Part shown: one piece after another, positions 3,783 to 47,404 of the stretch
Position numbering within the stretch: position 1 is the first letter of the stretch
Layout: each line of letters begins with the position of its first letter
NCBI GenBank assembly: GCA_013297925.1
Contig: JAAFJC010000007.1
Location: forward strand, 1-64,000
DNA: 64,000 nucleotides
Source of the DNA: Comamonadaceae bacterium
Lineage (GTDB): Bacteria > Pseudomonadota > Gammaproteobacteria > Burkholderiales > Burkholderiaceae_C
Reading direction: 5' to 3'
Program-made: the position numbers and the translations under genes
Notes under the pieces: model-generated
The model's input: only the letters and a program-made list of their open reading frames with translations
Databases searched by the model: none
What the model was told of the DNA's origin: nothing

Positions 3783-4493
3783 TTACTTCGAGCGCGCCAT
3801 AAACACCTGATGCAGCGTGATCTTGCGCACCTCGGTTTGGCTCGATTGGATATGCGCTTTGAGCAGCATCACCGCCTGATCAGCGCGCTTGGCTCGAATC
3901 GCTTTGAGGATTTTTCCATGCTCTTCGTAGGTGGCATCAATGCGCAGGGCTTGCGTGAAATCAAGCTGGCGAATGATGCGGATGCGCTCGGTCACGTCAC
4001 TGTGTACGCGGCTCATCTCGGCATTGCCGCAAGCCGCCACGAGGGTGCTGTGAAACTGCTCATCCCAGCGTGCCACTTGCGTGCCATCGCTGCTGCGCTG
4101 CGCAGTAGGCACAAGCCAGATCGCTGCAAGCGCTTGTAACTCTTGGGAAGGCAGCTCATCATCTCGTGCGCACAGCCGCTGCACCGCCGTCGTCTCCAAA
4201 ATCATGCGCAGATCGTAGAGCTGCTCAAACTGATCGAAATCAAACGGCAACACGCGCCAGCCGCTGCGAAACAGCACCTCCACCAAGCCCTCTTGCTGCA
4301 AACGAATCAAGGCTTGACGCACGGGTGTGCGCGACACATCAAGCCGCTCGCATAACTCGTTCTCCGTGAAGCGATCCCCGGGAATCAGCTTGAACTGCGC
4401 AATATCTCGCTTGACTTGGGCATACACCTCATCCGCCCGCGAAGGTGCGCGCGTGGCGGGGGATTCGGTCAAGGTGCGGCGAGACAGTGGCAT
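3783..4493 (-). CDS. GntR family transcriptional regulator (FadR/FCD type)
   Basis: N-terminal wHTH ...GDRFTENELCERLDVSRTPVRQALIRLQQEGLVEV; FCD-like C-terminal region. Confidence 0.88.
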   Translation of the reverse strand: MPLSRRTLTESPATRAPSRADEVYAQVKRDIAQFKLIPGDRFTENELCERLDVSRTPVRQALIRLQQEGLVEVLFRSGWRVLPFDFDQFEQLYDLRMILETTAVQRLCARDDELPSQELQALAAIWLVPTAQRSSDGTQVARWDEQFHSTLVAACGNAEMSRVHSDVTERIRIIRQLDFTQALRIDATYEEHGKILKAIRAKRADQAVMLLKAHIQSSQTEVRKITLHQVFMARSK

Positions 4494-4500: not shown

Positions 4501-4878
4501 TTATCCCGCTAGCAAACTCACATGCGCCGCCACCACACGCCAGCCATCAGGCATACGCACCCAGGTTTGGCTCTGCCGCCCAGGTTTGTTACCACCGACG
4601 CGCTGAAATTCGATATTGGCTGTGGCGTAATCACGCCCGTAGGTGGTGATCACGGTGCGCAGCACATCACGCGCCAGCCCTTGCGCCGGGCGGCCTGCGC
4701 GGAAGGCTTGAATTGCAGCGAAGCCGTAAAGATTCTCGCCTACGCCGTAGCGCAGCGTGTGCGGGCTGTTCCAAAACAACTCATCGAGCACGGCCACATC
4801 GTTCGCGACGAGCGCCTTTTCGTAGCGCGCAAATGCGGCGCTCACTTCCGCCAGAGTTTCAGGGTGATTGATGTCCAT
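4501..4878 (-). CDS. atzH: AtzH/HpxZ-like (DUF3225) protein
   Basis: [36 protein letters not shown]...; ATGA overlap with the upstream amidase. Confidence 0.75.
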
Positions 4879-6227
4879 CAGAGTTTGCTTTCTTTGAGAT
4901 GTGCGATGCCCGCTTGTTGCAAGGCGGCGGCTGCGCGAAGGGCTAGGTGTTCGTTCCAAGGTGCGGCGATCAGCTGCACGCCAATGGGCAAACCGTTTGC
5001 ACCTTGCGGCCACATCGGCGCGGCCACCACCGGGCAGCCCGCAAAGGAGATCGGCTGGGTGAGCAAGCCCATCGAGGGGCGGCTGGGCAACTTTTGGCCT
5101 TGAATCTCGATCCATTCCGTGCCAATCGTCGGTGCTGCCACAGGCGTAGCGGGTGCGATCAACACATCCCAATCTTGAAAGAGCGCATTGATCTTGTCCC
5201 GATAAATCCGGCGAAAGCGCTGCGCGCGCAGATACCAATCGAGTGGCTGCAAAGCGCCGGCGATGAAACGATCCACCGAATGCGGCTCAAAATCTTGGGG
5301 GCGTTTTTTCAATTCGTCAAGATGCAAGCTGCCGCCTTCGCTCGCGGTGATCACAAAAGCCGCAGTGCGCCCCAGTGCAGCATCTGGCCAGATCACACTG
5401 CGATTCGTCGCTTGCAGCGTTTCAGCAGCCAGCGCGGCCACGCTGCGGGCTTCATCACTGGCCATGTCATGAAAATAGCCCCCAAGCTGGCCGATGCGCA
5501 AGCCTTGCGTGCCCGAGCCCAGCGTGGGCAAACTCGGCTGCACGGCCAAAGCATGGCAGCCGGGATCAAGCGGATCAGCGCCTTGCATCGCGTCATACGC
5601 AGCAGCCAACAGCTCCACGCTATCGGCCATCGGCCCCAGGTGATCAATGCTGTGAACAAAGGGATAGGTGCCGCGCCGCGAGAGCCGGCCAAAGGTGGGC
5701 TTGAGCCCCCACACCCCGCACAGCGATGCGGGCACGCGGATCGAGCCATTGGTGTCTGACCCGAGCGTGAGCGGCACTTGGCCTGCTGCCACCGCCGCAC
5801 CCGAGCCGCCCGACGAGCCACCCGAGATGCGCGTGAGATCGTGCGGGTTATGCGCCGGGCCGTAATGCGTATTTTCTGTGGTGAAACCGTAGGCATATTC
5901 ATCCATATTGAGCGCGCCGACCAGAATCGCGCCCGCAGCTTGCAGGCGCTGCACGAGCACGGCATCTTGCGCAGCAGGGGCATGCTCACGGTTGATCTTG
6001 GAGCCTGCCAGCGTGGGCAAGCCTTGGATATCGAACAGATTTTTCACCGCATATGGCACACCAGCCAGCGGCCCGAGGCTTTCGCCCTTGGCGCGGCGGG
6101 TATCTACTGCTTGCGCTTCGCTGCGAGCGCGATCAAAGGTGTGCGCCGTGAAAGCGTTCACCTGTTTATCGGTGGCGGTGATGCGCGCAATCGCCTGCTC
6201 AACGCGCTGCAAAGCCGTCATGCTCAT
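4878..6227 (-). CDS. atzE: AtzE/HpxY-like amidase (candidate 1-carboxybiuret hydrolase catalytic subunit)
   Basis: Amidase signature [36 protein letters not shown]; flanked by AtzG- and AtzH-like ORFs. Confidence 0.8.
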
Positions 6228-6442
6228 GCGCCCTCCTTACCTGCGACAACAGGAAAAGGCGAAGGCCGGAAAATCTCAGCCAACTCTTGCTCAGGCGCGA
6301 GCGGATACTGCTTCAAAGCGGTGACCATGCCAAAGGTGCGCCCCAGATGCATGGCTACGTTTTTGGCGCGAACCTCATCCAGAGGCAAATCAATGGCCTT
6401 GGCCATGGTGTTGACGTAATTCAAGGCTTCTTCATCGGTCAT
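6224..6442 (-). CDS. atzG: AtzG/HpxX-like small subunit (DUF4089, GatC-like)
   Basis: 72 aa; position immediately upstream of the AtzE-like amidase with 4-bp overlap. Confidence 0.7.
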   Translation of the reverse strand: MTDEEALNYVNTMAKAIDLPLDEVRAKNVAMHLGRTFGMVTALKQYPLAPEQELAEIFRPSPFPVVAGKEGA

Positions 6443-6452: not shown

Positions 6453-7463
6453 TTAAAACTCTTTCAAACGATCCATATGATGACAGGCCGCTTCACGCGC
6501 TTTGCCCACCGCTTGCAATACAGGCGCTTCGCTCGCACAACGCTCATTCGCATGCGGGCAACGGCCTTGAAAACTACAGCGCGGGATGTCCTTCGGAGCA
6601 TTTGCAGTCTGCTTGCTCATCATACGGATCGGGCTTTGCGGATCGCCAGGCAGCAGATACTCGCTCACATCACGCCCCGAGCCGGGAATCGATGCAATCA
6701 AAGCTTGCGTGTACGGGTGCTTAGGCGCAGCAAACAACTCCGCCGCCGGCCCGCTCTCCACAATGCGCCCCAGATACATCACCAGCACGCGATCACAGAG
6801 CAGGCGCACCACATTCAAATCGTGCGACACAAACAAAAAACTCATGCCCAGCTCGCGCTTCAAATCAGCGAGCAGTTGCAAGATCACCACCTGCACCGAT
6901 ACATCGAGTGCAGCGGTGGGCTCATCGAGCACGAGCAGACGCGGGCGCAGCACTGCGGCGCGCGCAATGCCCACGCGCGCCTTTTGCCCACCTGAGAGCT
7001 GATGCGGAAAGCGCGGCAGCAGCTCATGCGGCAGGCCGGTGAGCATAGCAATTTCTTCCACCTTGCGGCGAATCTCTGCTTCGTCTTTGATGCCCATCAA
7101 CAAGCGTAGCGGCTCGGCCAAGGTGTCAAACGCCGAATAGCGCGGGTTCAAACTGTCATGCGCGTCTTGAAACACCATTTGCACATCACGCCGCGTTTTG
7201 TGAGCGGGCATAAGCATCGGGTCGATCAACCCAAGGTCTGTGCCCAGAAAGCGAATCTGCCCATCTGTGATGCCCAGCGTGCGCGTGAGCAGGCGCACGA
7301 GGGTGGACTTGCCGCAACCCGATTCGCCCACCAAGCCCACCGTCTCGCCCGCTTCCATGCGAAAGCTCACGCCATCAACCGCATGCAGCATGCCTTTGCC
7401 CTGCGGTGTTTTCACCGGGAAATGCTTGACGAGATCCATCACCTCTAGCAATGCGGCGCTCAT
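6453..7463 (-). CDS. Dipeptide/oligopeptide-type ABC transporter ATP-binding protein (DppF-like)
   Basis: Walker A GESGCGKST, signature LSGGQKARVGIARA, oligopeptide C-terminal domain. Confidence 0.9.
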   Translation of the reverse strand: MSAALLEVMDLVKHFPVKTPQGKGMLHAVDGVSFRMEAGETVGLVGESGCGKSTLVRLLTRTLGITDGQIRFLGTDLGLIDPMLMPAHKTRRDVQMVFQDAHDSLNPRYSAFDTLAEPLRLLMGIKDEAEIRRKVEEIAMLTGLPHELLPRFPHQLSGGQKARVGIARAAVLRPRLLVLDEPTAALDVSVQVVILQLLADLKRELGMSFLFVSHDLNVVRLLCDRVLVMYLGRIVESGPAAELFAAPKHPYTQALIASIPGSGRDVSEYLLPGDPQSPIRMMSKQTANAPKDIPRCSFQGRCPHANERCASEAPVLQAVGKAREAACHHMDRLKEF

Positions 7464-8443
7464 GCAGTCACCTCGCTAGGCATTGAAAGCGCATGATGGC
7501 AACGCACAATGTGATTGCCGTCGGTGGCCGTGGGCAAGGGCGCATCGCAAGCGCTACTCTTGTGTGCGCAGCGCTCTGAAAAGCGGCAAGCTGGCAAATC
7601 ACTGCGGCGCAAATCCGGCAAGCTACCGGGAATTGCGCTCAGTTCTTTCAAGCTCGCTCTGCCCACAGGCGTTGCGCCAATGAGTTGCTGAGTGTAAGGA
7701 TGGCGCGGCTTGCAAAACAGCACTTCGGTAGGCGCGGATTCCACAATATGCCCCGCATGCATCACCACAATGCGATCACACTGCTCGCGCGCCAAGCCCA
7801 GATCATGGGTGATCAGCAGCATGGCCATGCCGCGCTCGCGCGTCTTGGCTTTGATAAGCGACATGATGGCCGCTTGCGTCGTCACGTCCAATCCCGTGGT
7901 GGGCTCGTCGGCGATCAAAAGCTTGGGATTGCAAGCCAGCGCCAAAGCAATCATCACGCGCTGACACAGACCGCCAGAGAGCTCGAATGGATAGGCGTGA
8001 TAGCGCCGCGAAGGATCGGGAATGCGCATGTCTTCTAGGCAGGCAATAGCTCGGGCTTTAAGATCGGTGCGCAGCGTGGTGGTATGGCGTGCGAGCACAT
8101 CTTCGAGCTGATGACCAATCTTGCGAATCGGATTAAGCGCCACCTTCGGATTTTGAAAAATCATCGACACTTCCCGGCCACGAATCGCGGCCAGATCGTC
8201 TTCTTTGGCGGCGAGTAAGTTGAGGCCATCAAACTGCGCACTGCCTTGCGTAATCCTTGCCGCTGCATCTGACAAACCGAGCACAGCGTGAGACAGCACG
8301 CTCTTGCCCGAGCCTGATTCGCCCACCAAGCCGACCGTCTCGCCCTTAGCAACAGAAAGCGACACATCATCGAGCGCCTGCACCGTACCGCCGCGTGTGC
8401 GAAATTGCAGTGAGAGCCCACACACCTCCAGCAAATGACTCAT
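7460..8443 (-). CDS. Dipeptide/oligopeptide-type ABC transporter ATP-binding protein (DppD-like)
   Basis: Walker A GESGSGKS, LSGGLCQRVMIALAL; start chosen at MSHLLEVCGLSLQF. Confidence 0.9.
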   Translation of the reverse strand: MSHLLEVCGLSLQFRTRGGTVQALDDVSLSVAKGETVGLVGESGSGKSVLSHAVLGLSDAAARITQGSAQFDGLNLLAAKEDDLAAIRGREVSMIFQNPKVALNPIRKIGHQLEDVLARHTTTLRTDLKARAIACLEDMRIPDPSRRYHAYPFELSGGLCQRVMIALALACNPKLLIADEPTTGLDVTTQAAIMSLIKAKTRERGMAMLLITHDLGLAREQCDRIVVMHAGHIVESAPTEVLFCKPRHPYTQQLIGATPVGRASLKELSAIPGSLPDLRRSDLPACRFSERCAHKSSACDAPLPTATDGNHIVRCHHALSMPSEVTA

Positions 8444-8465
8444 GCCTTGCCCCCTCTTCCAAGTG

Positions 8466-8545
8466 CCAGCGCAGAGCCGGCTTTGCCGGGCTGCTGCTGG
8501 CGCCCCCTTAAGGGGGAGACGCCGAAGGCGTTTCGGGGGTGGGTC
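8466..8545. repeat. Intergenic multi-stem repeat (Comamonadaceae-type 'gccggctttgccggg...gacgccgaaggcgt' element)
   Basis: gccggctttgccgggc, cgcccccttaaggggga and acgccgaaggcgt stems in the dppD/dppC gap. Confidence 0.6.
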
Positions 8546-8552
8546 ACCGCGT

Positions 8553-9461
8553 TCATGTCCGTTTCCTTGGGTCAATCAAATCCCGCAAACCATCACCCAG
8601 CAAATTGAAAGTAAACACCGCCAGCATCAACACCATGCCCGGAAACAACGCCACCCACCATTCACCGGAGATGATGTAGGTTGCTCCCTCGGCCACCATG
8701 ATGCCCCACTCCGCTGCGGGTGGGCTCACGCCTAGGCCAATGAAGCTCAGGCCCGCAGCATTCAAAATTGCCCAGCCCATATTGAGCGAGACCTGCACCA
8801 TCATCGGCGGCAGTGCATTCGGAATCAGATGCAGCAGCAAAATCCGCGCATCGCCATTGCCCGCCAAACGCGCCGCTTCCACAAAGCCCGCCTCGCGCCG
8901 CACATTCACCTCGGTGCGCGCCACGCGAATGTAAAACGGCAGATTCACCACGGCCGTGGCCAAGATGATGTTAAACACCGTGTTGCCCAGCGCGGCCACA
9001 ATGCCCATCGCCAAGACGAACAGCGGAAAGCTCATCACCATATCGCAGGCGCGCATGATGATGCGATCAAGCCAACCGCCGTAGTAGCCGGCGAGTGCAC
9101 CGAGCAAGCCACCAATGAGAAAAGAGGAGAACACGGCAGACAGCGCAATGATGAAATCAATACGCGTGGCCACGATCACGCGAGAGAGAATGTCACGCCC
9201 CAAGGCATCCGTGCCAAACCAATGCTTGATGCTCGGCGCTTGCAGCGATGGCCCCACATTGCTGGCCAGCGGATCGTAGGGCGCGATCCATGAGCCCAAG
9301 CAAGCCACCATGATGAAGAGCGCAAACAGAATCGCAGCCACCAAGGTGAACGGATTATCCGAGAGCACATAGCGAGCATGCGACCAGAAGCTTTTCTCGT
9401 TCACTCCTGATTTAATAGCTGCTGGCGCAGTTTTTATGCCGGCGAGAGCGGTGTTTTCCAT
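8553..9461 (-). CDS. ABC transporter permease (DppC-like)
   Basis: EAA-type motif, FNLLGDGLRDLIDPRKR C-terminus. Confidence 0.9.
   Translation of the reverse strand: MENTALAGIKTAPAAIKSGVNEKSFWSHARYVLSDNPFTLVAAILFALFIMVACLGSWIAPYDPLASNVGPSLQAPSIKHWFGTDALGRDILSRVIVATRIDFIIALSAVFSSFLIGGLLGALAGYYGGWLDRIIMRACDMVMSFPLFVLAMGIVAALGNTVFNIILATAVVNLPFYIRVARTEVNVRREAGFVEAARLAGNGDARILLLHLIPNALPPMMVQVSLNMGWAILNAAGLSFIGLGVSPPAAEWGIMVAEGATYIISGEWWVALFPGMVLMLAVFTFNLLGDGLRDLIDPRKRT
9411..9449 (+). repeat. Dispersed ~40 bp repeat, copy in dppC-like N-terminus
   Basis: tttaatagctgctggcgcagtttttatgccggcgagagc. Confidence 0.75.
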
Positions 9462-9475
9462 AGAATTTAGCTCTC

Positions 9476-10489
9476 TTAACTCTCTAGGCGCACGCGTGGA
9501 TCAATCACCACATAAAGCACATCGATCAATAAATTCAGCAAGGTATAGAGCACAGCCATGGTGAGCACAAAGCCTTGCACCGGCGCGTAATCACTGGCCA
9601 CGAGCGCTTCCAAAGCAAACGAACCCACACCCGGCCACGCAAACACCTTCTCCACAATCACGCTCATGCCCAGCAAAAAGCTAAACACCATGCCCAGCGT
9701 GGTGATCACTGGCAGCAGTGCATTGCGAAACGCATAACGCACCAGCACGGTGGTGGGCGATAAGCCCGAGGCTCTTGCCGTGCGGATGAAGTCTGCCGAG
9801 AGCACAGACAGCATGGAAGCGCGCGTCATCCGCGCCAAGGGGGCGAGCACGAAGATGCCCAAGGTGAGCACTGGCAGGATCATTTGCTTCAAGCTCGCGA
9901 TGAAGAGCGGGCCATTGCCTGCGAGCAAGCTGTCCAGCGTGTAGAAGCCCGTGATGTTCGGCGGTGAAGACAGATACGGATCAAGCCGGCCAATGGGCGA
10001 AGGCGCCCAGCCGAGCAGAAAGTAAAACACATAGGCCAAGAGCAGCCCAGTGAAGAAAGTGGGCAATGACACGCCTGCCGTGGTGATCAAGCGGCAAGTG
10101 TGATCCACCCACGAATTGGGATGCCGCGCTGCTGCGATGCCCAGCGGAATTGCAATCACCACAGCAAACAGCAGAGAAGCCAACACCAGCTCCAGCGATG
10201 CCGGCAAGCGCGTGATCAGCTCCTTGGCCACGGGCTGGCCTGTTGACAGGGCATTGCCCAAGTCACCTTTCGCAAGCGATTTCAGATAGATCCAAAACTG
10301 CTCGGGCAAGCTTTTATTGAGCCCCAGCTTCTCGCGCACCTCGGCCACGGCCTCTTGCGTGCCCGAAGGTCCAGCGAAAAACGCCGCCGGATCGCCCGGC
10401 AGCGCGCGCGTGAGCAAGAAGGTAATCAGCACAATGCCAAAGAGATTGGGCAATGCGCCGAGCAAGCGCTTGAAGATAAGGGTGAGCAC
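9476..10489 (-). CDS. ABC transporter permease (DppB-like)
   Basis: MLTLIFKRLLGALPNLFGIVLITFLLTRALPGDPA...; LLIDVLYVVIDPRVRL. Confidence 0.9.
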   Translation of the reverse strand: MLTLIFKRLLGALPNLFGIVLITFLLTRALPGDPAAFFAGPSGTQEAVAEVREKLGLNKSLPEQFWIYLKSLAKGDLGNALSTGQPVAKELITRLPASLELVLASLLFAVVIAIPLGIAAARHPNSWVDHTCRLITTAGVSLPTFFTGLLLAYVFYFLLGWAPSPIGRLDPYLSSPPNITGFYTLDSLLAGNGPLFIASLKQMILPVLTLGIFVLAPLARMTRASMLSVLSADFIRTARASGLSPTTVLVRYAFRNALLPVITTLGMVFSFLLGMSVIVEKVFAWPGVGSFALEALVASDYAPVQGFVLTMAVLYTLLNLLIDVLYVVIDPRVRLES

Positions 10490-10504
10490 TGGGCGCGTCT
10501 CGCT

Positions 10505-12127
10505 TTATGATTTCACGAGTTGGCGATAGTCTGGCTCCAAATGGAACCAATAGGTATAGCCGCTGATATTGGCCTGCATCGCCACATCCATCATCGGTTG
10601 CACCAGCGGAATGCGTGGCACTTCTTCATTGGCCAGCGCGATCATGTCTTTCACCATGCCTTCATAGAGCACCTTGCTCTCTGCAAAGCGTGCATTGGTA
10701 ATCAGCTTGTCCATCGTCGCGTTTTGGTAGCTCATCGTGTTGAAGACGGCGTTTTGGCCGTGATAGCACCAGAAGAAGAAATACTCGGGGTAGTTGAGCC
10801 AGCCGCCGAAGCGGTTGATGATGATCGGCATGTCTTTCTTCAGCAAGGCCGCGCGCCATGTGGCACCGGGGATTTTGTTGATCGTGAGCTTGATGCCGAT
10901 TTGTGCAAGCGCCTCTTGCACCAAAATCGCTGCGGGCTCGGCAATCGTGGCTGAGCCGAGGTCAAATGAGAGCTGCGTCTCAATCGCGCCTACGCCGGAT
11001 TCAGCCATGAGCGCTTTGGCTTTGGCGATATCAGTTTTGTAACCATGCGGCTGCGGCCACACAGGGGCTTTGGGTGTGTTGCTGCCGCCATCCATGCGGA
11101 TGCCGCGCTTGTAAAACGCATTCTCAAACATCTTGTCATACGGCAATGCCCAGGCCACGGCTTGGCGCACTTTCACGTTGTTGAACGGTGCGCGTGAGGT
11201 GTTCATGCCAAGATAGAAGATGGAGTTTTCAATTGGCATGCTGGCCACTTTGAGCTTGCCTTTATCGGCCATGAAATCGGCAAAATCCTTTGGAGGCAGG
11301 CTGTACGTCATATCAATATCGCCGCGCTGAATCAAAGCGCGGCGATTGCCGGCGGAAGGCACATCGCGCTGAATGATGCGCTTTAGCTTGGGCAGCGGGC
11401 CGCTCTTCCACTCGTCAAAACGCTCCAGCGCGATCTCTTGGCCGGGCTTCCAGCTCGCCACTTTGTAGGCGCCGCCGCCTGCCTCATTGGTTTTGAGCCA
11501 TTCGGCCGCCCAGGGGTCTTTTTCGGTGGCGTTTTTCTTAGCGAGTGTGGAGTTGTAGACTGAGGCTACGGGCACGGCCATATCGGGCAAAGAGAGCTTA
11601 TCGGTGCGGATGAATTTCACATAGAAGGTGTGATCGTTGATCACTTTGAATTGATTCGGGTCTTCGAGCGAGCCCGCTTTCATTTGGAAGGTGGGAAAGC
11701 CGCCCATGCCAAGAGCACGGTCATAGCTCCATTTCACGTCTTTCGCGGTCACGGGTGTGCCATCGTGAAACTTCGCATCTTTACGCAAATTGAAAGTCAC
11801 GCCCATGCCATCGGCATCCATCTTCCAGCTCGTGGCCAGCTCGGGTTCGAGCTTGGCGAAGTCATACATCATGTTGCCATCGGGTGCTTTCTTTTTCCCG
11901 TAAGTGATCAAGCGGTCATAGCAATTCCATGCCACGCCATAGCTCGGGCGATTTGCGCCGAGGCCGTGGATATCCAGCATGTTCGCGCCAAACTCATTGG
12001 CCACGATCAAGGTTTCTTTGCGGTCTTGCGCGCTCGCGCTGCTGGGCAGCCATGCCGCAGCCACGGGGCTGAGCGATGCGGCTTGGAGAAGAGAACGGCG
12101 TTTGGCATTCAAAGTGCGAGAGGTCAT
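10505..12127 (-). CDS. ABC transporter substrate-binding protein (SBP family 5)
   Basis: Tat-like/secretory N-terminus, WKMDADGMGVTFNLRKDAKFHDGTPVTAKDVKWSYDR. Confidence 0.9.
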   Translation of the reverse strand: MTSRTLNAKRRSLLQAASLSPVAAAWLPSSASAQDRKETLIVANEFGANMLDIHGLGANRPSYGVAWNCYDRLITYGKKKAPDGNMMYDFAKLEPELATSWKMDADGMGVTFNLRKDAKFHDGTPVTAKDVKWSYDRALGMGGFPTFQMKAGSLEDPNQFKVINDHTFYVKFIRTDKLSLPDMAVPVASVYNSTLAKKNATEKDPWAAEWLKTNEAGGGAYKVASWKPGQEIALERFDEWKSGPLPKLKRIIQRDVPSAGNRRALIQRGDIDMTYSLPPKDFADFMADKGKLKVASMPIENSIFYLGMNTSRAPFNNVKVRQAVAWALPYDKMFENAFYKRGIRMDGGSNTPKAPVWPQPHGYKTDIAKAKALMAESGVGAIETQLSFDLGSATIAEPAAILVQEALAQIGIKLTINKIPGATWRAALLKKDMPIIINRFGGWLNYPEYFFFWCYHGQNAVFNTMSYQNATMDKLITNARFAESKVLYEGMVKDMIALANEEVPRIPLVQPMMDVAMQANISGYTYWFHLEPDYRQLVKS

Positions 12128-12166: not shown

Positions 12167-13927
12167 TTATTTCTTGGAATTCAGGGAGGCGATGTAGGCA
12201 CGCCAGCCGCCCAGATGGGAAATGTCTGTTGCTCCTTGCACGGCTTGCGCTTCGCAAAGAAAGCCTTGCACGTGCGAACCATCTGCGAGCTCAAGGCTGC
12301 CGATGCCAAGCGGCGAAGGGATCAAGGCGACGAAAGAACCGTAGTGCTGCACAGGCATCTCCCAAATCTCCAAGGCGATCTGCACGCCCTTCCCACTGGC
12401 CACGCGCAGCAAGCCGGGCTTGGGCGGTGTCGTGCCGGGCAAGGCGAAGAATTGGTAGTGGGCTGCCGTCTTAGCTTCTTGGAGCAACACTGCGCCGCGC
12501 TCGGTGAGCTGGCTGTTGAGCGGCATGCCTGAGAGATGCGCGCCGACGACGGCGACGCGAACGGTCGTCTTCGGTTTCAGACCAACAATCGGCTGAGGAT
12601 CGGGCAGCGGCTGACCCGTTGCTCCCATGCTCAAACCAGTCGCATGGTGATACTTCTGGCCAAGCTCTGCCAACTGCAAATCAGTGGCGCAAGGGCCAAT
12701 CAAGGTGATGCCAAAAGGCAGGCCATCTGCGCGCATGCTGCTCGGTACAGACAGTGCCGCGTAATCGAGCAGATTCACAAAATTGGTGTATGCGCCGAGG
12801 TTGCGATTGAGCGCAATCGGATCGGCCTGCATTTGCACCAGCGTGTAGTGCGTAGGCGCAGTGGGCACGACGAGCACGTCAATACCCTCCCACATCGGCT
12901 TGGCCATTTGCTCCAGGCGCTTGAGCGCGAGCTGCGCTTCATACACGTCGGCGGCGCTGTAACTTCTGCCTTTGGCGATGATGCTGCGCACGGGCTCAAT
13001 CACATCAGCTTCATGCGCATCGAAGAATTCACGAATTGCGGCATAGCGCTCTGCGACCAAGGCGCTCTCGTAGAGCAAAGCGGCGGCTTGCGCGAGCGGG
13101 GCGTAGTCGATCTTCACCGGTACTCCGCCCATGCTGATCAAACGATCTACGGCTTGTGCAAAGGCTTGTTCTGCCAATGCATCGCCGAAGAACTCCAATT
13201 GCGAAGGTATGCCAAATTTAAACTGCGCAGGCAGTGGCTCGCTCTTCAGTGGCAATATGCGCGAATACGGATCGCTTGCATCAAAGCCCATCGCCTGCTG
13301 CAAGACCTTCACCGCCAAGCCCACTGTGCCCGCGAAGATCGAGACGCAATCGACGCTCTGCGCGGCGGGCAGCACACCCGAGGCGCTGATCAAGCCCCGC
13401 GAAGGTTTGAGCCCGACGATGTTGTTCAACCCAGCAGGCACGCGCCCTGAGCCTGCCGTATCTGTGCCCAGAGAAAAATCCACTTGCCCAGTCGCCACTG
13501 CATAAGCCGAGCCCGAGCTGGAGCCGCCACTCACGTAGGCCGGATTGAAGGCATTGGGTACAGCGCCATAAGGCGAGCGCGTGCCATTCAGCCCACAGGC
13601 AAACTGATCCAGATTGGTTTTGCCGACAAGGGCAGCACCCGATTGCAGCAAGCGCTGCACCACGCTGGCATGCTGCACAGGTGTTCGCGTAAACGCCGGG
13701 CAGCCCGCCGTGGTCGGCCAGCCAGCCACATCCATATTGTCTTTCAAGGCAAAGCGCAGACCTGCCAAAGCGTTTGCCGCATTCGGTAATTGCAATGCAG
13801 CTTCCGGGCGATGAAGCCAGGCTTGCGCAGCCAGGGCTGGCGGTGGGGTGATTTGTTCGGCGGATATTTGCACGGTTAGAAATCCATCTGTTGCAAAAAT
13901 AAAAGGACGAAGTTCATGCTGCGTCAC
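12167..13927 (-). CDS. atzF: Allophanate hydrolase (amidase domain plus C-terminal domain)
   Basis: [49 protein letters not shown]-terminal domain typical of AtzF. Confidence 0.85.
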
Positions 13928-14589
13928 GCCTCGGCGCTCTCGCGCAACGCAGCCAACTCAGCCACCCAACCTACAATCGCGCCTTGCGCGACGATCATCT
14001 CGATGGTGGCTTGCTTGAAATGCGGGAAATAGCTGGCAGTAGCGTCTGTGATCAGCAGGCATTCGTAGCCCCGGTCATTGGCTTCTCGCATGCTGGTCTG
14101 CACGCAGACTTCGGTGGTGACACCGGCCACGATCAAGCTTGTAATGCCGCGCTGCACCAGTTGCTCATGCAAACCCGTGTTGTAAAAAGCGCCCTTGCCT
14201 GGCTTGGCAATCACCAGCTCTTGCGGCATAGGCTGAAGGGCTTCAATGAAATCACTGCCCGGCTCACCATCAATCAGCAGCCTGCCCATGGGGCCGGGAT
14301 CACCAATGCGCAGACTGGGATTACCGCGATTCTTTTTCGCAGGTGGCAAATCAGACAAATCAGGGCGATGGCATTCTTTGGTGTGAACCACTGTGATACC
14401 AACCTCACGCGCCCATTGCAGCAGCGCTTGCGCCGTCGGCACGATGGATTGCAAATACCTCACGTCGTTGCCCAGCGACTCACCAAAGCCACCATGCTCA
14501 ATGAAATCGCGCTGCATATCGATCATCAGCAAAGCGGTGTGCTTAGGCTCGAAATGGAATTCAAAAGGTTGTGCGGAGACGGTTTTCAT
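13924..14589 (-). CDS. Isochorismatase-fold cysteine hydrolase, paralogue of the BiuH-like gene
   Basis: [47 protein letters not shown] (D-K-C triad). Confidence 0.8.
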
Positions 14590-16118
14590 ACGACAGCACT
14601 TTCTGGCTCAATCACTTGCCCGCCCATCGCCAAGCCAATCGCTTGGCGCTCTTGCTGCGGATGGCGGCTTTCATAGACGATGCGACCGGCGTGCATCACA
14701 AGCACCCGATCAGACAGCTCCAGCAACTCATCTAAATCTTCACTGATCAGCACAATGGCGCAGCCGCGCTGGCGTGCTTGCATCAAGCGCTCATGGATAT
14801 CGGCCACCGCCGCAAAATCCAAGCCAAAGACAGGATTCATCACGATGAGCACCTGTGCATCAGCAGCCAGCTCACGCGCCAAAATACAGCGCTGCACATT
14901 GCCGCCTGATAACGTACCAATCGCCGCATCGGGGCCGCGCGTTTTGATGCCATAGGCCTCAATGAGCTGCTGCGCGGTGCGGCGCAGGGATGCTGCTTGC
15001 AGCCAACCCAAGCGTGCATGCGGCGTTTGATCAAAGCTGCGCAAAGCCATGTTTTGCGCCACGCTGAGCGCTGCCACCGCGCCATTGGCCAAGGGCTCTT
15101 CTGGTAGCACAGCTAGCTTGGCTTCGCGATAGTCTTTGCGTGTGCCGGCGAAAGCCTTGCCATGCACAAGCACCTGCCCCGCGCTGCGCGGCATCTGCCC
15201 CGAGATCGCTTGCACCAATTGCTTTTGCCCATTGCCTGCAATGCCTGCAATGCCCACAATCTCATGCCGCGCAGCCTCAAAACTCACCCCATGCAAAGCA
15301 GGCACACCGGCTTCGCTCAAAGCAGACAAGCCCTGCACTTGCAGCACAGGCGTGGCCGAGCTCTTCACACGCTCATAGCTGCCGCGCGCCATGGCACTGC
15401 TGCCCACCATCAAACTGGCCAAGCGCTCCGGCGGAAAATCACGTACCGCACCACCGCCCACGTAGCGCCCATGGCGCAAGATGCTCACATCATCGGCATA
15501 GGCCTGCACCTCGCGAAATTTATGGGTGATCAAAACGACCGTGATCTCGCCCGCATGCGCCAAGCTGCGTATCGCACCCAAGACTTCATCGGCCTCAGTA
15601 GGCGTGAGCACCGAGGTGGGCTCATCCAAAATCAGCAGGCGATTGTTGGCATAGAGCTGCTTGAGGATTTCTGTTTTTTGCTTTTCGCCAGCTGATAGAT
15701 TAGCCACCGTGGCTTGCAAATCCAGCTGAAACGGCATGCCCTGCATGAAAGCGCGCATGCTGGCCAGTTGCGCGGGCCAATCAATCACGGCAGGCAGCTC
15801 GCCCTTGCCCAAAGCCAAGTTTTGCGCCACTGTCATCGAGGGCACAAGCGTGAAATGCTGATACACCATGCCGATGCCGGCACTGCGCGCCATCTGCGGT
15901 GTGCGGATATCGGTCTCGCGCTCGTTGATCACAATCGCGCCATCATCGGCCGTATGAAAGCCCACCAAGCATTTGACCAAGGTGGATTTGCCCGCACCGT
16001 TCTCGCCCAGCAGCGCATGCACTGTGCCCGCCCGCACTTGCAGGCTCACACTATCGAGCGCCGTGAAATCACCAAAGCGCTTGGTCAGATCGAGTGTGCT
16101 CAGGGCAAGGGCGCGCAT
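14586..16118 (-). CDS. BMP-associated (nucleoside-type) ABC transporter ATP-binding protein, two ABC domains
   Basis: [45 protein letters not shown]. Confidence 0.88.
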
Positions 16119-16131
16119 CTGGGGCATCTCT

Positions 16132-16818
16132 TCAGGCCAGCGCCTGCAATATATCGGCTGAGCTGGCCACCGCGCCAAACACGCCGCCTTGCATAGTGAT
16201 CATCTTCAGCGCGGCTTGATGGTTGCCCAAATCAGTTGCGCCTGTGCAGTCGCTCAGCACCACACATTCAAAGCCTCGGTCATTGGCTTCGCGCATCGTG
16301 GTGTGAACGCACACGTCAGTCGTGATGCCGGTCAGTATCAAATTGCGAATGCCGCGCGTGTGCAAAATGAGCTCTAAATCCGTTGCGCAAAACGAGCCTT
16401 TGCCCGGCTTGTCGATGATGGTCTCATTCGGCAGCGGCGCGAGCTCAGAAATGATGTCCCAGCCTGGCTCTCCGCGCACCAAGATGCGGCCACACGGCCC
16501 GGCATCGCCAATGCCTGCGCCGATGCGTTGGCTGCGCCAGCGTTTGTTGGCCGGCAGATCGGCCAAATCCGGGCGATGGCCTTCACGGGTGTGGATGATG
16601 TGAAAGCCCAACTCACGCATGCGCGCCATCACGCACTTGATGGGCTCAATCGGTGCGCGCGTGAGCGAGAGGTCATAGCCCATCTTGTCCACATAGCCGC
16701 CGATGCCGCAGAAATCGGTTTGCATATCGATCACCACCAAGGCGGTGTTGGCGGGCGTGAATGCGCCATCAAATGGCCAAGCGTAGGGCGTTGAGCTGAG
16801 GGTGGGAAAGTTCTTCAT
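16132..16818 (-). CDS. biuH: Biuret hydrolase-like isochorismatase-fold cysteine hydrolase
   Basis: [23 protein letters not shown]...[46 protein letters not shown]...[22 protein letters not shown]; resembles BiuH from memory, not searched. Confidence 0.78.
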
Positions 16819-16843: not shown

Positions 16844-17851
16844 TCAAGGCAGCATGTTTTGAGGGTCGTAGGTGCGTGTGGGCGGTGCGAAGCCGCAGGA
16901 GCTGCCATCACGCTCCACGATGCTGGCATCCCAAGGCAGCTTGTAGCGGCCGGCCACCATGTCTTGCATGAAGGTGTAGGGGCAATCTTGCGCGCCACCT
17001 TTCACGGCCACATAGCCCCGGTGATAGAGCTGATAAGGATTGTTTTCCACACCCCAGTGCGCCCGCGCCTCGCGCACGAGATCGGGGCGCACTTCGCAGG
17101 TGATGATTTCATCGGGGCGATGGCTGCCCATGGCCAAGGGCACGCCATCGAAATTGACAAACATGCCCTCGCCCATGGAGTCAAACGTGCCATCGCTGCC
17201 GCACATGCACACGCTGGCGGTGACCATGAGGTTTTGAAACGCATTGGCCTGATTCGTGATGCGCCAGCTGTGGCGGATCGGCGCGGTGTAGCCCGCCGTG
17301 CGGATCATCAGCTCAGCGCCTTTGTAAGCGCACTCGCGCGCCATCTCTGGAAACATGCCATCGTGGCAAATGATGAGCGAGAGCTTGATGCCACGCGGAC
17401 CAGTGATCACCGGAATGCCCAGATTGCCTGGCTCCCAAGGCTCCACAGGCACCCACGGATGCAGCTTGCGGTAATACAGCGCGATCTCGCCTTGATCGTT
17501 GATGATGAGGCCGCTGTTGTAGGGATTGCCGTTGGGGTTGAACTCCATGATGGAGAAACAGCCCCAGAGCTTGTTGTCAATGCACGCTTGCTTGAAGGCC
17601 GCGACTTCGGGGCCATCCATACGGCACATGATCTCGGGGTTCGTATCCATCGATAAACCATGCAGGCTGTATTCGGGAAACACCACCAAATCCATCGTAG
17701 GCATATTGCGCCGTGCTTTAGCCACCATCTCCACAATGCGCTGCGTTTGCGCCGCCAGATGCGCTTTGGTTTGCACCTCAGGCAATTGCGATTGCACCAG
17801 CCCCAGCACCACGCCGTGGGGCGATTTGTTCAGGCCATTGAGTCCGCTCAT
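16844..17851 (-). CDS. Nitrilase-superfamily amidohydrolase, formamidase/aliphatic amidase type
   Basis: E-K-C triad motifs [21 protein letters not shown]. Confidence 0.82.
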
Positions 17852-17861: not shown

Positions 17862-18782
17862 TTAACGCATCAAGGGAAGCTCACCCGGTGCGCCGCGCAG
17901 GGCGCGTGTGGGCGAGACGGTGATCAGCATGACCAGCAGGGTCAGCACATAAGGCGCGGCATTCCACAGGTGATAGCCCTGCGAAATACCCACCGCTTGC
18001 AAGGCCGGCCCCACTGAGCTGGCTGCGCCAAACAGCAGCGATGCCGCAAAGCAACCCATCGGATGCCAACGCGCAAAAATCACCAAGGCCACGGCCATGA
18101 TGCCTTGGCCGCTGGAGAGGGCTTCATTCCAACTGCCGGGGTAATACAGGGAGAGAAATGCACCACCGATGCCCGCGAGCGCACTTCCGATGATCGTTGC
18201 CGTCACACGTGTTCGGTTGACGGACAGACCCAGCGCTTTCGCTGCCGCCGCGCTATCGCCCACCGCGCGCACCTGCATGCCCCAGCGCGTGTAGGTGAGT
18301 GCCCAAGTGAGGCACAAGGCCAACGCCAATCCCACCAAAAACAGCACATTGATGCGCAGCGCGGACTGCACCACGATGGAGGATGACCACGCACCCAATT
18401 GCAAATCTTGCAAGCGAGGCGCTGTGGGTTGCACATAGGATTTGCCCAAAAAGAAAGCCAAGCCCAGCCCCAAAATCATCAGCGCAATGCCCAGGGCCAC
18501 ATCATTGACTTTGGGCAAACTGCACAGCAAGCCATGCAGCAATCCAAACACACTGCCCGCTCCTGCAGCGCAGGCCACGCCCAGCCACGCGCTTCCTGTG
18601 TGATAGGCGGCCGCATAGCCTGCCATGGCGCCAAACACCAGCGTGCCTTCCAACCCAAGATTGATACGCCCTGATTTCTCGGTGATGGCCTCGCCTAGGC
18701 TCACAAAGATAAAAGGCGTGGATACCTTCAGAGCACCGCCGAGCAAAGACGCGAGCACGATGAGCCAAGCGGGATCACTCAT
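17862..18782 (-). CDS. BMP-type ABC transporter permease
   Basis: EKSGRINLGLEGTLVFGAMAGYAAAY. Confidence 0.87.
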   Translation of the reverse strand: MSDPAWLIVLASLLGGALKVSTPFIFVSLGEAITEKSGRINLGLEGTLVFGAMAGYAAAYHTGSAWLGVACAAGAGSVFGLLHGLLCSLPKVNDVALGIALMILGLGLAFFLGKSYVQPTAPRLQDLQLGAWSSSIVVQSALRINVLFLVGLALALCLTWALTYTRWGMQVRAVGDSAAAAKALGLSVNRTRVTATIIGSALAGIGGAFLSLYYPGSWNEALSSGQGIMAVALVIFARWHPMGCFAASLLFGAASSVGPALQAVGISQGYHLWNAAPYVLTLLVMLITVSPTRALRGAPGELPLMR

Positions 18783-19843
18783 GTCGCTTGCCCCGCCACT
18801 TTGGATGCACTTTTGAAACGAACCTGTCCCAGGCGGCCATACAGCGCCTCACAGGCCAGAATTGAAATAAACAAACAGCCTTGCAGCACAAGTGTGGTGG
18901 CATCGGGCAAATCCAGCCGGCGCTGGAGCAAACTGCCTGCCGCTGCGATGCCGCCCATCAGCACCGCCACCGGAATGATGGCCAAGGGCTGATGCCGCGC
19001 CATGAACGAGACCAAAATGCCCGTGTAGCCATAGCCCGCCAAGATAGATGCGTTGGCCGCGCCATGAACCGCCAACACCTCAATCGCCCCCGCCAAGCCT
19101 GCCGCCAAGCCCGAGAGCACGCAAGCGAGCACCACCAGTGCATTCACAGGCAAACCCACCAATTTAGCCGCCTTGGAATTGCCGCCTGCCACTTTTAAGC
19201 TGAATCCCAACACACTGCGGCTGACCCAAATTTGCGCCAACACCGCCAGCACGATGCCGATGGGCAAGCCCCAATGCACATTGATGCCAGGCACTGCACC
19301 CAGGGTGTGCGCTTCGCCCACTGGAAAGGTCGAGGGTTTGTTCAAACTCGAAGGGTCGCGCAAGCTTCCCTCGACGAAGTGATTGAACAAGGCAATCGCA
19401 ATGTAGGACAACAACAAGCTAGCAATCGTCTCGTTCAAGCCGCGGTATGCGCGGAGCACTCCTACCAAGCCAATCCACACGCTAGCCGTTAAAGCACCAG
19501 CCAGCAACGCAGCGATCACCACAAGCGAAGGCGGCAAACCTCCCAGCCACATCACCGCCGCAGCGGCTGCCAAGCCGCCTAGGGCCAAAGCCCCTTCGCC
19601 GCCAATGATCACCAAACCCGCCTGCGCCGCCAAGGCCACAGCCAATCCCGTCAGAAGCAAAGGCGCAGCGCGCATCAAGGTGTTTTGCCAAGAAAAGGCC
19701 GAGCCAAACGCGCCTTCAAAAATCACGGCCAAGGTGGCTAATGGATTATGGCCAATCAGCACAATGAAGGCGCTGAACAGCAACAAACCCGCCAGCACAG
19801 CCACCAGCGGAACCAAAAGCCATTCAAAGCGCTGGAGGTTCAT
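18779..19843 (-). CDS. BMP-type ABC transporter permease
   Basis: AAQAGLVIIGGEGALALGGLAAAAAVMWLGGLPP; 4-bp overlap with next permease. Confidence 0.87.
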   Translation of the reverse strand: MNLQRFEWLLVPLVAVLAGLLLFSAFIVLIGHNPLATLAVIFEGAFGSAFSWQNTLMRAAPLLLTGLAVALAAQAGLVIIGGEGALALGGLAAAAAVMWLGGLPPSLVVIAALLAGALTASVWIGLVGVLRAYRGLNETIASLLLSYIAIALFNHFVEGSLRDPSSLNKPSTFPVGEAHTLGAVPGINVHWGLPIGIVLAVLAQIWVSRSVLGFSLKVAGGNSKAAKLVGLPVNALVVLACVLSGLAAGLAGAIEVLAVHGAANASILAGYGYTGILVSFMARHQPLAIIPVAVLMGGIAAAGSLLQRRLDLPDATTLVLQGCLFISILACEALYGRLGQVRFKSASKVAGQAT

Positions 19844-19885: not shown

Positions 19886-20998
19886 TCAACCGGGGATGCT
19901 GCCAATGACACCTTCAACCAAATAGTTCATCTTCTCCAGATCGGTATCCGTCATCATGAAAGACTTGCCGGCGGGCGCGATCACAGCGCCTTTGTTGTCT
20001 TTGAGCGGGCCTTTGAAGATCGCAAAATCGCCTTTGAGCAAAGCGGCCTTGGCTTTTTCACCCGCTTCTTTGGCTTTGGCTGAAACGCTGGGCCCGTAAG
20101 CGGACATTTTCACAAAGCCTTCCTTCATGCCGCCACGCAGGAAGTTGTTCATGGGCTTGCCAGTGCGCGCCTCCTCAACCAAAGTTTTGTAAGGCGTGGT
20201 CCAATCCCACTCCGCACCCGTGAGGTAACCCTTCGGGGCTAGCTTGGCTTGGCTAGCGTGATAGCCGCAGCTCATGATGCCGCGCTTCTCGGCCGTTTCA
20301 ATCACGACTTTGGGGCCATCAACGTGGCAGGTCACCACATCCACACCGGCATTGATCAGTGCGGTGGTGGCTTCGGCCTCTTTCACCGGCATCGACCAAT
20401 CTCCCGTGAAGATCACTTGGCAAGTGATAGCTGGATCAACGCTGCGCGCGCCCAGTAAGAAGGCATTGATATTGCGTAGCACCTGCGGAATAGGCTTGGC
20501 TGCCACAAAGCCAATCTTCTTGGTTTTGCTCATATGTCCAGCGACCACGCCGCTCACATACTGCGCGCCATCGATGTAGCCATAAAAAGAGCCGACATTT
20601 TTTGGATGCTTGCCTTCAGTCCACATGCCACCGCAATGTGCGAAGCGAACGCTGGGGTACTTTGCGGCCAGCGCCAACACATGGGGATCAAAGTACCCAA
20701 ACGACGTTGCAAATATAAGAGACGCTTTATCCTGATTGATCATCGCCTCCATAGATTTCTGTACTGCAAGTGTCTCTGGGACTTTTTCCTCCTCCACCAC
20801 CTTCACACCGGGCATGGTCTTTATCATGGCTGCTGCTTGTGCATGAGCTTGGTTGTAGCCAAAGTCATCACGCGGGCCAACATACAAAAAACCAACGGTA
20901 ACGTTACCGGCAGCCTGCGCTATCAAGGAGGGCGCAGCACCCGAAAGCAGACCTGCTGCACCTAAAGATTGAACGAGTTGACGACGTGAAATTGACAT
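19886..20998 (-). CDS. BMP family ABC transporter substrate-binding protein
   Basis: MSISRRQLVQSLGAAGLLSGAAPSLIAQA signal; VGFLYVGPRDDFGYNQAHAQAAAMIK. Confidence 0.87.
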   Translation of the reverse strand: MSISRRQLVQSLGAAGLLSGAAPSLIAQAAGNVTVGFLYVGPRDDFGYNQAHAQAAAMIKTMPGVKVVEEEKVPETLAVQKSMEAMINQDKASLIFATSFGYFDPHVLALAAKYPSVRFAHCGGMWTEGKHPKNVGSFYGYIDGAQYVSGVVAGHMSKTKKIGFVAAKPIPQVLRNINAFLLGARSVDPAITCQVIFTGDWSMPVKEAEATTALINAGVDVVTCHVDGPKVVIETAEKRGIMSCGYHASQAKLAPKGYLTGAEWDWTTPYKTLVEEARTGKPMNNFLRGGMKEGFVKMSAYGPSVSAKAKEAGEKAKAALLKGDFAIFKGPLKDNKGAVIAPAGKSFMMTDTDLEKMNYLVEGVIGSIPG

Positions 20999-21058
20999 AG
21001 CTTGACTCTCCAAATAGAAAGGAACACACCCAAATTGGTGCAATAACAAGAAAAGCAT

Positions 21059-21070
21059 CTTGTATACAAG
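21059..21070. promoter_or_regulatory. Perfect palindrome CTTGTATACAAG, candidate GntR-family operator
   Basis: 12-bp perfect dyad in the upstream region of the BMP operon; a second dyad TTGCATGCAA lies at 21072-21081. Confidence 0.55.
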
Positions 21071-21076
21071 TTTGCA

Positions 21077-21092
21077 TGCAATAGGTGTGCCA
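21077..21092 (-). promoter_or_regulatory. Candidate sigma54 (-24/-12) promoter
   Basis: Minus strand TGGCACACCTATTGCA; matches TGGCAC(G)N4TTGC(A/T) with correct GG-N10-GC spacing, 79 bp upstream of the bmp gene start. Confidence 0.6.
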
Positions 21093-21153: not shown

Positions 21154-22590
21154 TCAGAGCCGCTCAAATGGCACTCTCATCTCGTCCCGCCAGCCTTCGG
21201 TTTTTCCGGGATTCATCAGGCCGTGGGGATCGGCCACTTTCTTAAAGTCAATTTGCGCTGAGTCAATGGTTTTCATGCCACCGCCCTCAATGGTGTAGAC
21301 GTGGTTGTCCAAAACGACACAGCCATCCGCCTCGAATTCATTGATGATCTCGTACAGTCTGTCTTTGTCAAAATAAGCAACCAAAGGCAGGCCGAAAACA
21401 ACCGCGCCATCGTGATCGCGTGCAAACTCATGGTGCATCAGTACCTCATCGCCCCAGCGCTGCATCTGCTCTTCGATCTGGCCAATGTCTAGCGGCCAAG
21501 AGTGAATGGTCTGCAGGTTCGTCCAACTGCTGTCCTGGCGCAATGCCATCAAAGTGGTGTGGTTCCATCCGCACTCAAAAGCAGGAGGAATGGCAGCCAT
21601 GGACAGCTCTTGCTCCGTCATGGCCAAAGTCTCAACACCGCCGTGCTCAGCAACCATGGCACGCCAGCGATCCATGTAATCAGGGTGAATCATGCTGAAA
21701 ACCGCATCCCGGTTATGCGGAAAGCGCTCGCCAAATTCTTTTTCATAAAAGGGCGCGAAGCGTCGCTCGACTGCGGTGATCAGAAAAGCGTCGAGCAGCT
21801 TCGCGTTCGCTGAATCGTTGGCGCCGATGGCCACTGTTTGCTTGACAGCTTCAGTGGCCGAAACACACAGGCTCAACGCTTCAGAATAGCCATCAAAGAG
21901 CGCAATGTGGTGAATCCAGTCAACGGCGGGCTTCAAGCTGAGCGTAAGCTCGACCATGATGCCGTTCGTACCGAAAGCGTGGTGTACCTTCTGAATATCA
22001 GTATTGACAAGCTCTATGACGCGCGGCTGAGCCTCAAGCGTCACGACCTTAATACTCGTCACGTTACCGGGATCCTTCAAAATTCCATTGCGAATGGAGC
22101 CCGCGCCACCATAGCCGCCGCCTACAAACCCGCCGACGGTGGCAATATCTCGCGTGCTGGGATACATCAGCAACTCTTGCCCGCCTTGGACGCATGGATT
22201 CGCTCGAACTGCGCGCTCCACGTCCATCATGACCGCACCCGCTTCGCAGGTTACACGCCCAGGCTCGATGGACAACACCCGATTCAAGCCGGTTAAGTCC
22301 AAAACGATGCCGCCGACCAAAGGCACGCACTGACCATAGTTGCCCGTGCCACCGCCTCGAACGGTCAGATGGATTTGCTGACGGCATGCCGCCGCAGCAA
22401 CCCGCACGACCTCCGCCCGTGTCTTGGGCTTCACAACGACCTCCCCCAATTTGTCAGACAGTGTTTTTGCGAGAATTGGGCTGTACCAATAATAATCTTT
22501 GCTTTTAACAGCCAATGTTTGATTGTCTTGGCTAAAGTCAATGCCTTCGATAGCCGCTAAAAAAGCGTTGATTTGCAATGGATCTGTCAT
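21154..22590 (-). CDS. FAD-binding (GlcD-like) oxidoreductase
   Basis: LTVRGGGTGNYGQCVPLVGGIVLDLTGLNRVLSIEPGRVTCEAGA (FAD_binding_4). Confidence 0.82.
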   Translation of the reverse strand: MTDPLQINAFLAAIEGIDFSQDNQTLAVKSKDYYWYSPILAKTLSDKLGEVVVKPKTRAEVVRVAAAACRQQIHLTVRGGGTGNYGQCVPLVGGIVLDLTGLNRVLSIEPGRVTCEAGAVMMDVERAVRANPCVQGGQELLMYPSTRDIATVGGFVGGGYGGAGSIRNGILKDPGNVTSIKVVTLEAQPRVIELVNTDIQKVHHAFGTNGIMVELTLSLKPAVDWIHHIALFDGYSEALSLCVSATEAVKQTVAIGANDSANAKLLDAFLITAVERRFAPFYEKEFGERFPHNRDAVFSMIHPDYMDRWRAMVAEHGGVETLAMTEQELSMAAIPPAFECGWNHTTLMALRQDSSWTNLQTIHSWPLDIGQIEEQMQRWGDEVLMHHEFARDHDGAVVFGLPLVAYFDKDRLYEIINEFEADGCVVLDNHVYTIEGGGMKTIDSAQIDFKKVADPHGLMNPGKTEGWRDEMRVPFERL

Positions 22591-22738
22591 TTTGGTACTC
22601 GTTGCATACATTTCCACCATGACACAAGCACGCAGCGTGCCAACCAAATTGAGAACCTTGCCAAAAACTCAGACGGATCCATTGAGGTCATTTCCTCAAA
22701 GTGGTGCGCACACCAGCGCGCTTGCAGTACCATATACC

Positions 22739-46288: not shown

Positions 46289-47266
46289 TTACTGCGGCAC
46301 TAATCCCGCAGCCTTCACCAAATCTGCATGAATTTTGGTGTCTTGCACGATCAGGCGTTGGACATCTTCTGGAGTGCTCAGCGCCACCTCGATGCCGCTC
46401 TCGGCGAGTTTTGCGCGCGTCTCTGCATCAAAGGCTGCAACGACAGCCTTATTGAGTTGATCGACTATTGATTTCGGGGTTTTGGCGGGGGCGAGCAAGG
46501 CCATCCATGCGGAGAGGGTGAGGTTGGCCACGCCAGCTTCTTGCATCGTGGGCACTTGGGGGAAGACGGGCGAGCGGGTGGGGCTCATCACGCCAAGCGC
46601 GTTTAGCGTGCCAGCTTTCACATGCGGTACGGCTTCGGGCATCACGGCGAACATGGCATCGACTGTGCCGGCAATCGTGTCGTTGATGGCCAATGCGCCG
46701 CCACGGTAGGGCACATGCAGGAGCTTGGTTTGTGTGCGCGATTCAAACATCAGACCGCCCAAGTGCTGGGGGCTGCCGTCGCCGGAAGATGCGTAGGTAA
46801 GCTTGCCGGGGTTGGCTTTCGCGGCAGCGATGAAGGCGGCGACTGTGGGGTATTTAACCTTGTCTTTGACGATCATCACCATGGGCTGATTTACCAGGCG
46901 CGAGATCGGCTGGAAATCAGCTTCTGGGTCGTAAGGCAAGGCTTTGAAGACGCTCCTGTTCGTCGTGAGGAAAGAGGCAGGCGAGACGGTGAGCGTGTAC
47001 CCGTCTGGCGCGGCTTTGGCCACCAATGGCATACCGATCTGGCCAGAGCCGCCGCCCCGGTTGTCCACCACGACAGGCTGCCCCAAAGCCGTGCTGAGTT
47101 TCTGGCCGAGGGTGCGGGCGATCATGTCTACGCTGCCACCGGCAGGCAGGGCAACGATGAATTTGATGGGCTGATCGGGGTATTTGGCTTGAGCGAAAGC
47201 CTCGCCGCTGAGGGACAAAACACCGAGGGCGCCCGTGTAGGCGAGGGAAGTGCGACGAGTGAGCAT
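46289..47266 (-). CDS. Bug/TctC family tripartite tricarboxylate transporter substrate-binding protein
   Basis: YPDQPIKFIVALPAGGSVDMIARTLGQKLSTALGQPVVVDNRGGGSGQIG. Confidence 0.92.
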   Translation of the reverse strand: MLTRRTSLAYTGALGVLSLSGEAFAQAKYPDQPIKFIVALPAGGSVDMIARTLGQKLSTALGQPVVVDNRGGGSGQIGMPLVAKAAPDGYTLTVSPASFLTTNRSVFKALPYDPEADFQPISRLVNQPMVMIVKDKVKYPTVAAFIAAAKANPGKLTYASSGDGSPQHLGGLMFESRTQTKLLHVPYRGGALAINDTIAGTVDAMFAVMPEAVPHVKAGTLNALGVMSPTRSPVFPQVPTMQEAGVANLTLSAWMALLAPAKTPKSIVDQLNKAVVAAFDAETRAKLAESGIEVALSTPEDVQRLIVQDTKIHADLVKAAGLVPQ

Positions 47267-47348
47267 GAGCGAATCTCCAAGTTGACGGATGACCGAATGG
47301 ATAGCACCCAACGGCGCTACACCGTGTTTTGTATGCAATTCACATGCC

Positions 47349-47364
47349 AAAGTGTATACACTTT
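47349..47364. promoter_or_regulatory. Perfect 16-bp palindrome AAAGTGTATACACTTT, candidate GntR-type operator upstream of the Bug gene
   Basis: Perfect dyad with TGTATACA core, ~83 bp upstream of the ORF start; TTGTATGCAA at 47329-47338. Confidence 0.5.
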
Positions 47365-47404
47365 TGTGGTGCATGGCCAGCGCTCATTTTTCAACCAAGC
47401 ACAG

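Follow-up and report, generated by a model that had tools for sequence, protein, structure and literature searches.

A putative sigma54 promoter with a predicted GntR/FCD-type operator over its start site, upstream of a triuret/biuret gene array

In Pseudomonas sp. ADP, the atzRSTUVW and atzDGEHF genes are controlled by AtzR, NtrC and sigma54; the promoters are sigma54-dependent and induced by nitrogen starvation, and one of them is repressed by the local regulator (PMC6834077). A related pathway is encoded by the TrtA-BiuH-AtzF operons of Herbaspirillum sp. BH-1 and Rhizobium leguminosarum, which convert triuret to ammonia, and six residues that distinguish TrtA from BiuH have been reported (PMC7948467). 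The text of that paper mentions neither GntR nor nitrogen regulation.

The locus described here lies on a 64,000-nucleotide stretch of DNA from a Comamonadaceae bacterium (hereafter the window; the genome it belongs to is the host genome). It resembles the atz genes in its predicted carboxybiuret/allophanate chemistry and its BMP-type, AtzT-like transporter, and it shares with Herbaspirillum sp. BH-1 and R. leguminosarum the same three hydrolases in one putative operon. The last gene of the array encodes a regulator built like the FCD-type GntR repressors, with a winged helix and an FCD domain and, at the promoter, a short palindromic candidate operator. The operators of such repressors are of the TTGTNNACAA kind.

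Gene content of the array

The array genes, all on the minus strand, were identified by family models and structure comparison. The first (19886-20998) encodes a BMP/PnrA-family ABC substrate-binding protein (PF02608) whose nearest solved structure is AtzT (6PI5, 197 bits), and two BPD_transp_2 permeases of the same transporter follow (18779-19843 and 17862-18782). Next come a formamidase (16844-17851; NF009803, 558.6 bits, cut-off 406), the biuret hydrolase BiuH (16132-16803, start approximate; NF050097, 418 bits, cut-off 370), an ABC transporter ATPase (ORF 14586-16178, the true start probably further in), the triuret hydrolase TrtA (13924-14589) and the allophanate hydrolase AtzF (12167-13927; TIGR02713, 752.8 bits, cut-off 511). 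Beyond a five-gene Opp/Dpp-type ABC transporter (6453-12127) lie an AtzG-like small subunit (6224-6442; PF13318, 34 bits, cut-off 24), an AtzE-family amidohydrolase (4878-6227; TIGR02715, 705.9 bits, cut-off 426), an AtzH/HpxZ-like protein (4501-4878, start approximate; PF11533, 203 bits, cut-off 27; HpxZ model NF033625, 207.6, cut-off 135) and the GntR/FCD regulator, a predicted repressor (3783-4493; PF00392, 68 bits; PF07729, 77.8 bits). No AtzD/cyanuric acid hydrolase is among the array genes annotated.

The two isochorismatase-family enzymes are separated cleanly by the six TrtA/BiuH residues. The TrtA gene product scores 308 bits to TrtA 6XIX versus 196 bits to the best BiuH structure, and all six of its residues in the alignment to 6XIX are TrtA-type (F35, N41, A134, E160, Y187 and I205); BiuH carries its own diagnostic residues Y, Y, S, D, T and V at the discriminating sites. 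Judged by the family models, the structure comparison and this six-residue split, what the original prediction had called an amide-nitrogen array is a triuret/biuret/carboxybiuret nitrogen-scavenging pathway with its transporters. Most intergenic gaps are below 45 bp, with atzG and atzH occupying the two larger ones; these sizes are consistent with one transcript, though no proof of it.

Promoter, operator and their conservation

Upstream of the first gene, the minus strand reads TGGCACACCTATTGCA (21092-21077), then TTGCATGCAA (21081-21072), then CTTGTATACAAG (21070-21059). The first of these is the sigma54 element (21077-21092, minus strand). It has GG at -25/-24 and GC at -13/-12, 10 bp apart, in a sequence close to TGGCACN5TTGCW, and in a pattern scan it is the single exact match to TGGCACN5TTGCA in the window. 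Its fit to the -24/-12 consensus with correct spacing had been predicted, and it holds base for base. From sigma54 geometry, transcription would start 12 nt past the -12 C (21078), at 21066 on the minus strand. This position falls within CTTGTATACAAG (21059-21070), so that the perfect palindrome does lie around the expected +1 as had been claimed, and TTGCATGCAA (21072-21081) likewise proves to overlap the -12 element.

We assign CTTGTATACAAG, at about -4 to +8, as the primary predicted operator of GntR/FCD type; its position-weight score of 20.9 is the maximum and the top in the window. Thus a conserved palindromic operator overlaps the core promoter, as expected of a promoter repressed by a GntR/FCD protein. 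A candidate second operator, TTTGCATGCAAA (21071-21082, core TTGCATGCAA), overlaps the -12 element, and the centres of the two palindromes are exactly 12 bp apart. When all offsets were scored in relatives, the best secondary operators stood at -12 and +12 from the primary one, but a clear second operator occurs in only about one in eight sites. We therefore rate the second palindrome of the window as a plausible rather than an established operator.

The listed ORF start of the first gene at 21058 was rejected in favour of the ATG at 20998 (MSISRRQLVQ), which follows a Shine-Dalgarno sequence GGAGAG read directly at 21011-21006 on the minus strand (21006-21011). The leader is thus about 68 nt long, and its unremarkable RNA structure (z -1.0) disfavours an attenuator or a riboswitch.

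Because sigma54 matches with two mismatches are frequent by chance (28 were found in the window, with 43 expected), the motif by itself is weak proof, and the proof is conservation. Relatives were gathered by a protein search with the first gene, which gave 80 loci, and from further whole genomes. The proteins encoded by their first genes share about 65-84% identity with the query, and the flanking DNA has largely diverged. With the upstream regions aligned on the operator, a sigma54 element precedes it in most relatives: among 40 non-redundant operators in front of this gene, 38 have one (two mismatches at most, in the 40-bp window before the operator), against 0.47 expected from shuffles and none in an antisense control. 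Altogether, 82 pairs of sigma54 element and operator occur in 67 of the 80 whole loci and none in reversed sequence, counts that are not independent events since the operator statistics are drawn from related loci. Several of the 13 loci with no pair are short contigs, and four pairless loci (L083, L093, L097 and L108) have a weaker, sub-threshold operator. Reduction for similarity left 52 promoters, and the columns conserved among them are those of the sigma54 element and the operator, the sigma54 GG and GC being non-independent there as the search demanded them. In 300 related genomes the combined pattern matched 35 times versus once for the reversed pattern. In the host genome, TGGCAYN5TTGCW has 19 matches and TGTATACA 10 sites, four of them no more than about 25 bp from a perfect sigma54 match (chance expectation, by our own estimate, about 0.004). 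The near relative L032 has the array split into two divergent units, with promoters at 9764 (minus) and 9914 (plus), both with a sigma54 element and an operator at offset 22. The arrangement is beyond chance.

These data bear on the view that the sigma54-like element is fortuitous, only the GntR site being real and the promoter being either of sigma70 type or further upstream, with read-through from the oxidase gene. We find this hardly credible. Its basis is that the TTGCATGCAA palindrome takes in part of the -12 TTGCA, and that the oxidase gene (21154-22647), upstream and co-directional, ends 61 bp before the -24 element. Against that, a search between the oxidase gene and bmp found no sigma70-like promoter, the -24 element is conserved with the operator at several spacings, and in Rhizobium a perfect sigma54 element stands upstream of bmp where this operator is missing.

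The spacing itself is instructive. Measured from the T of the -24 element, 54 of the 89 non-redundant sites have the operator at an offset of 22 nt; in most of the others the offset is 14 or 29-32 nt, and the observed range is 10 to 32. Such variation means that pure steric overlap with one element is not kept in strict register, and this leaves some room for a GntR protein that activates the promoter, or counteracts NtrC as an anti-activator, instead of blocking polymerase. We consider this improbable, as at no observed offset does the operator leave the stretch from the -12 element to about +18, which the initiating polymerase covers, and as FCD proteins are mostly repressors.

The module was found across Burkholderiales, Stutzerimonas/Halopseudomonas and Alcanivorax, and on plasmids of Pseudomonas oryzihabitans, Cupriavidus and Citrobacter freundii. 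A promoter design with two predicted inputs, sigma54 and a GntR site on +1, thus recurs across many genera as well as plasmids. Plasmids of Klebsiella, Enterobacter and Citrobacter also carry a BMP transporter gene of close similarity, with many near-identical Klebsiella/Enterobacter copies. In one C. freundii plasmid (NZ_CP056841.1, 18667-28290; L207), an AtzF-BMP-formamidase-BiuH-TrtA-GntR cluster retains the sigma54 element and the operator at offset 30. On a plasmid of R. leguminosarum bv. trifolii (L209, 8597-9000), a perfect sigma54 element precedes this transporter gene, but the CTTGTATNCAAG operator is missing and the GntR gene is a different one in divergent orientation.

Similar arrangements were seen elsewhere in the host genome. 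A second perfect sigma54-like element of the window, TGGCATGTGAATTGCA (47334-47360, minus strand), is flanked by GTGTATACAC and TTGCATACAA and fronts a TctC-type receptor gene (46289-47374). Sigma54-like elements also stand beside TGTATACA-type palindromes at G000 C72:6090-6120 and C126:7371-7393, both in front of solute-binding-protein genes, and in the regions of C57:51511 and C102:8122 (L136, L142, L199 and L178). This suggests that the pairing of GntR and sigma54 may be a general design in this genome.

Candidate repressor and activator

A gntR homologue is present in 52 of 59 full-length loci (at least 20 kb), often at the far end of the array; a close homologue is absent from the other seven, including L072 and L094, which have a perfect module. 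The host genome encodes six FCD proteins, the local GntR and five others, and two of its other TGTATACA sites are close to FCD genes. Hence a different paralogue, or several with overlapping specificity, could bind the operator of an otherwise unchanged sigma54 promoter. The TGTATACA cores near sigma54 elements at C72, C126 and window positions 47334-47360, which probably belong to other regulators, point the same way. We nevertheless think it unlikely, given that the gntR homologue travels with the locus and that the outer C...G of CTTGTATNCAAG is near-invariant here in relatives (38/40 and 37/40) but missing from the host genome's other TGTATACA sites. Exact CTTGTATNCAAG matches number four in the host genome, C76, C87 and C116 among them, and no sigma54 element lies beside those at C76 and C87.

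On the activating side, the host genome has one copy of rpoN (PF04552, 216.9 bits) and only two strong sigma54 activators (PF00158). One is NtrC (TIGR01818, 670 bits, cut-off 558.6), whose gene adjoins that of NtrB; the other is PilR-like and adjoins a probable kinase gene. By elimination, NtrC is the likely activator of the array promoter, with the proviso that an activator may have been missed in a genome that is 97% complete. The genome's 19 perfect sigma54 matches include some that precede genes, among them pilA, nirB and transporter receptors as well as the first gene of the array. The nirB promoter (L135, G000 C68:8894-8942) combines a perfect sigma54 element with an NtrC-like box, GCACTGATGTGGTGC, at -59, a combination that normal use of the NtrC system would lead one to expect. 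That box is about 50 bp upstream of +1, nearer than the usual distance.

With its -24/-12 element and NtrC present, the array promoter resembles NtrC-activated sigma54 promoters such as those of glnA and nirB, but it differs from them in its activator site. The upstream DNA, in which the original prediction would have looked for enhancer sites, holds no normal NtrC box within 200 bp of the window promoter, the best candidate having 6 of 12 mismatches; the box that promoters of the NtrC regulon carry about 80-150 bp before the start was thus not found here. In some relatives such a box stands at -82 to -122 (-94 to -122 in L034, L032 and L070), and on the Citrobacter plasmid at about -136. In the window, the candidate box is downstream of +1: GCACCAATTTGGGTG (21027-21041, minus strand), a weak match with 3 of 12 mismatches at +26 to +40 in the leader, equalled by 0.02 of 60 shuffles. 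About nine relatives have a GCAC-type (GCACYGNTTTGA-type) box in a similar position, at +25 to +29. Two other matches were set aside. A terminator-like one at 21042-21025 (minus) coincides with the inverted repeat of the NtrC-like box and lacks a good T-run, and NtrC-like boxes at +16 of atzF-proximal promoters were discounted since ATG/GTG/TTG-GTG-CAN there resembles a start codon.

It follows that NtrC, with no upstream site, would either act from solution or through the weak downstream box, or would have no part in activation. That it drives the promoter from the leader site, beyond the GntR roadblock at +1, is put forward as a possibility only, given the weak match, and we lean against it. 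If true, activator and repressor would both sit on the start side, and the enhancer would have moved across the promoter from the usual arrangement in relatives, 80-120 bp upstream. Activation by NtrC with no upstream site at all is another possibility, and has reportedly been seen at the atzR promoter. On biuret, an ntrC mutant of Burkholderia cenocepacia grew better rather than worse (PMC5491218), which counts against the NtrC reading, though that strain may not use this locus.

Overall, the nitrogen control and GntR block foreseen in the original prediction fit the conserved module, the conserved gntR and the presence of rpoN and NtrC. That account was largely right; what it missed were the substrates, the recurrence of the module and the absence of a normal upstream NtrC site.

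Proposed switch and relation to known systems

From the sites, conservation, spacing and gene content observed directly, and the presence of rpoN and ntrC, we infer sigma54 use, repression, NtrC as activator, an inducer and a single transcript. Thus, quite probably, this is the main promoter of the triuret/biuret operon, where NtrC-activated sigma54 transcription would be blocked by the local GntR until an inducer arrives. In this scheme, sigma54-RNA polymerase would bind the -24/-12 element and initiate only after remodelling by an activator, for which NtrC, phosphorylated when nitrogen is short, is the likeliest candidate. The GntR/FCD protein from the far end of the array would place one or two dimers on the operators 12 bp apart, covering about -16 to +8 and preventing productive binding or melting, and would be released by a pathway inducer, the candidates being triuret, biuret, carboxybiuret and allophanate. 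Transcription would then need nitrogen hunger and substrate together, and gntR, being last in the array, may damp its own operon.

The scheme is a prediction of what turns on the triuret/biuret pathway, a point on which the open-access papers searched are silent. That literature yielded no description of a GntR/FCD operator at the +1 of sigma54 promoters in fixed register, and nothing directly on point for GntR at sigma54 promoters, TTGTATACAA or PatzR. Natural variants are available in which the operator offset differs and in which the NtrC-like box lies either upstream of the start or downstream of it.

In Rhizobium CB782 the sigma54 element is kept but the CTTGTATNCAAG operator is not, and the GntR gene is divergent. 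Among known systems, the nearest is the transporter operon of the atrazine plasmid, which is under sigma54 control and repressed by AtzR (PMC6834077). Unlike the atz genes of Pseudomonas sp. ADP, the present array includes TrtA and BiuH, and its predicted operator is a 12-bp palindrome over +1. The array promoter would thus work like that of the atrazine-plasmid operon, but with a predicted GntR/FCD regulator on +1 in place of the LysR-type AtzR.
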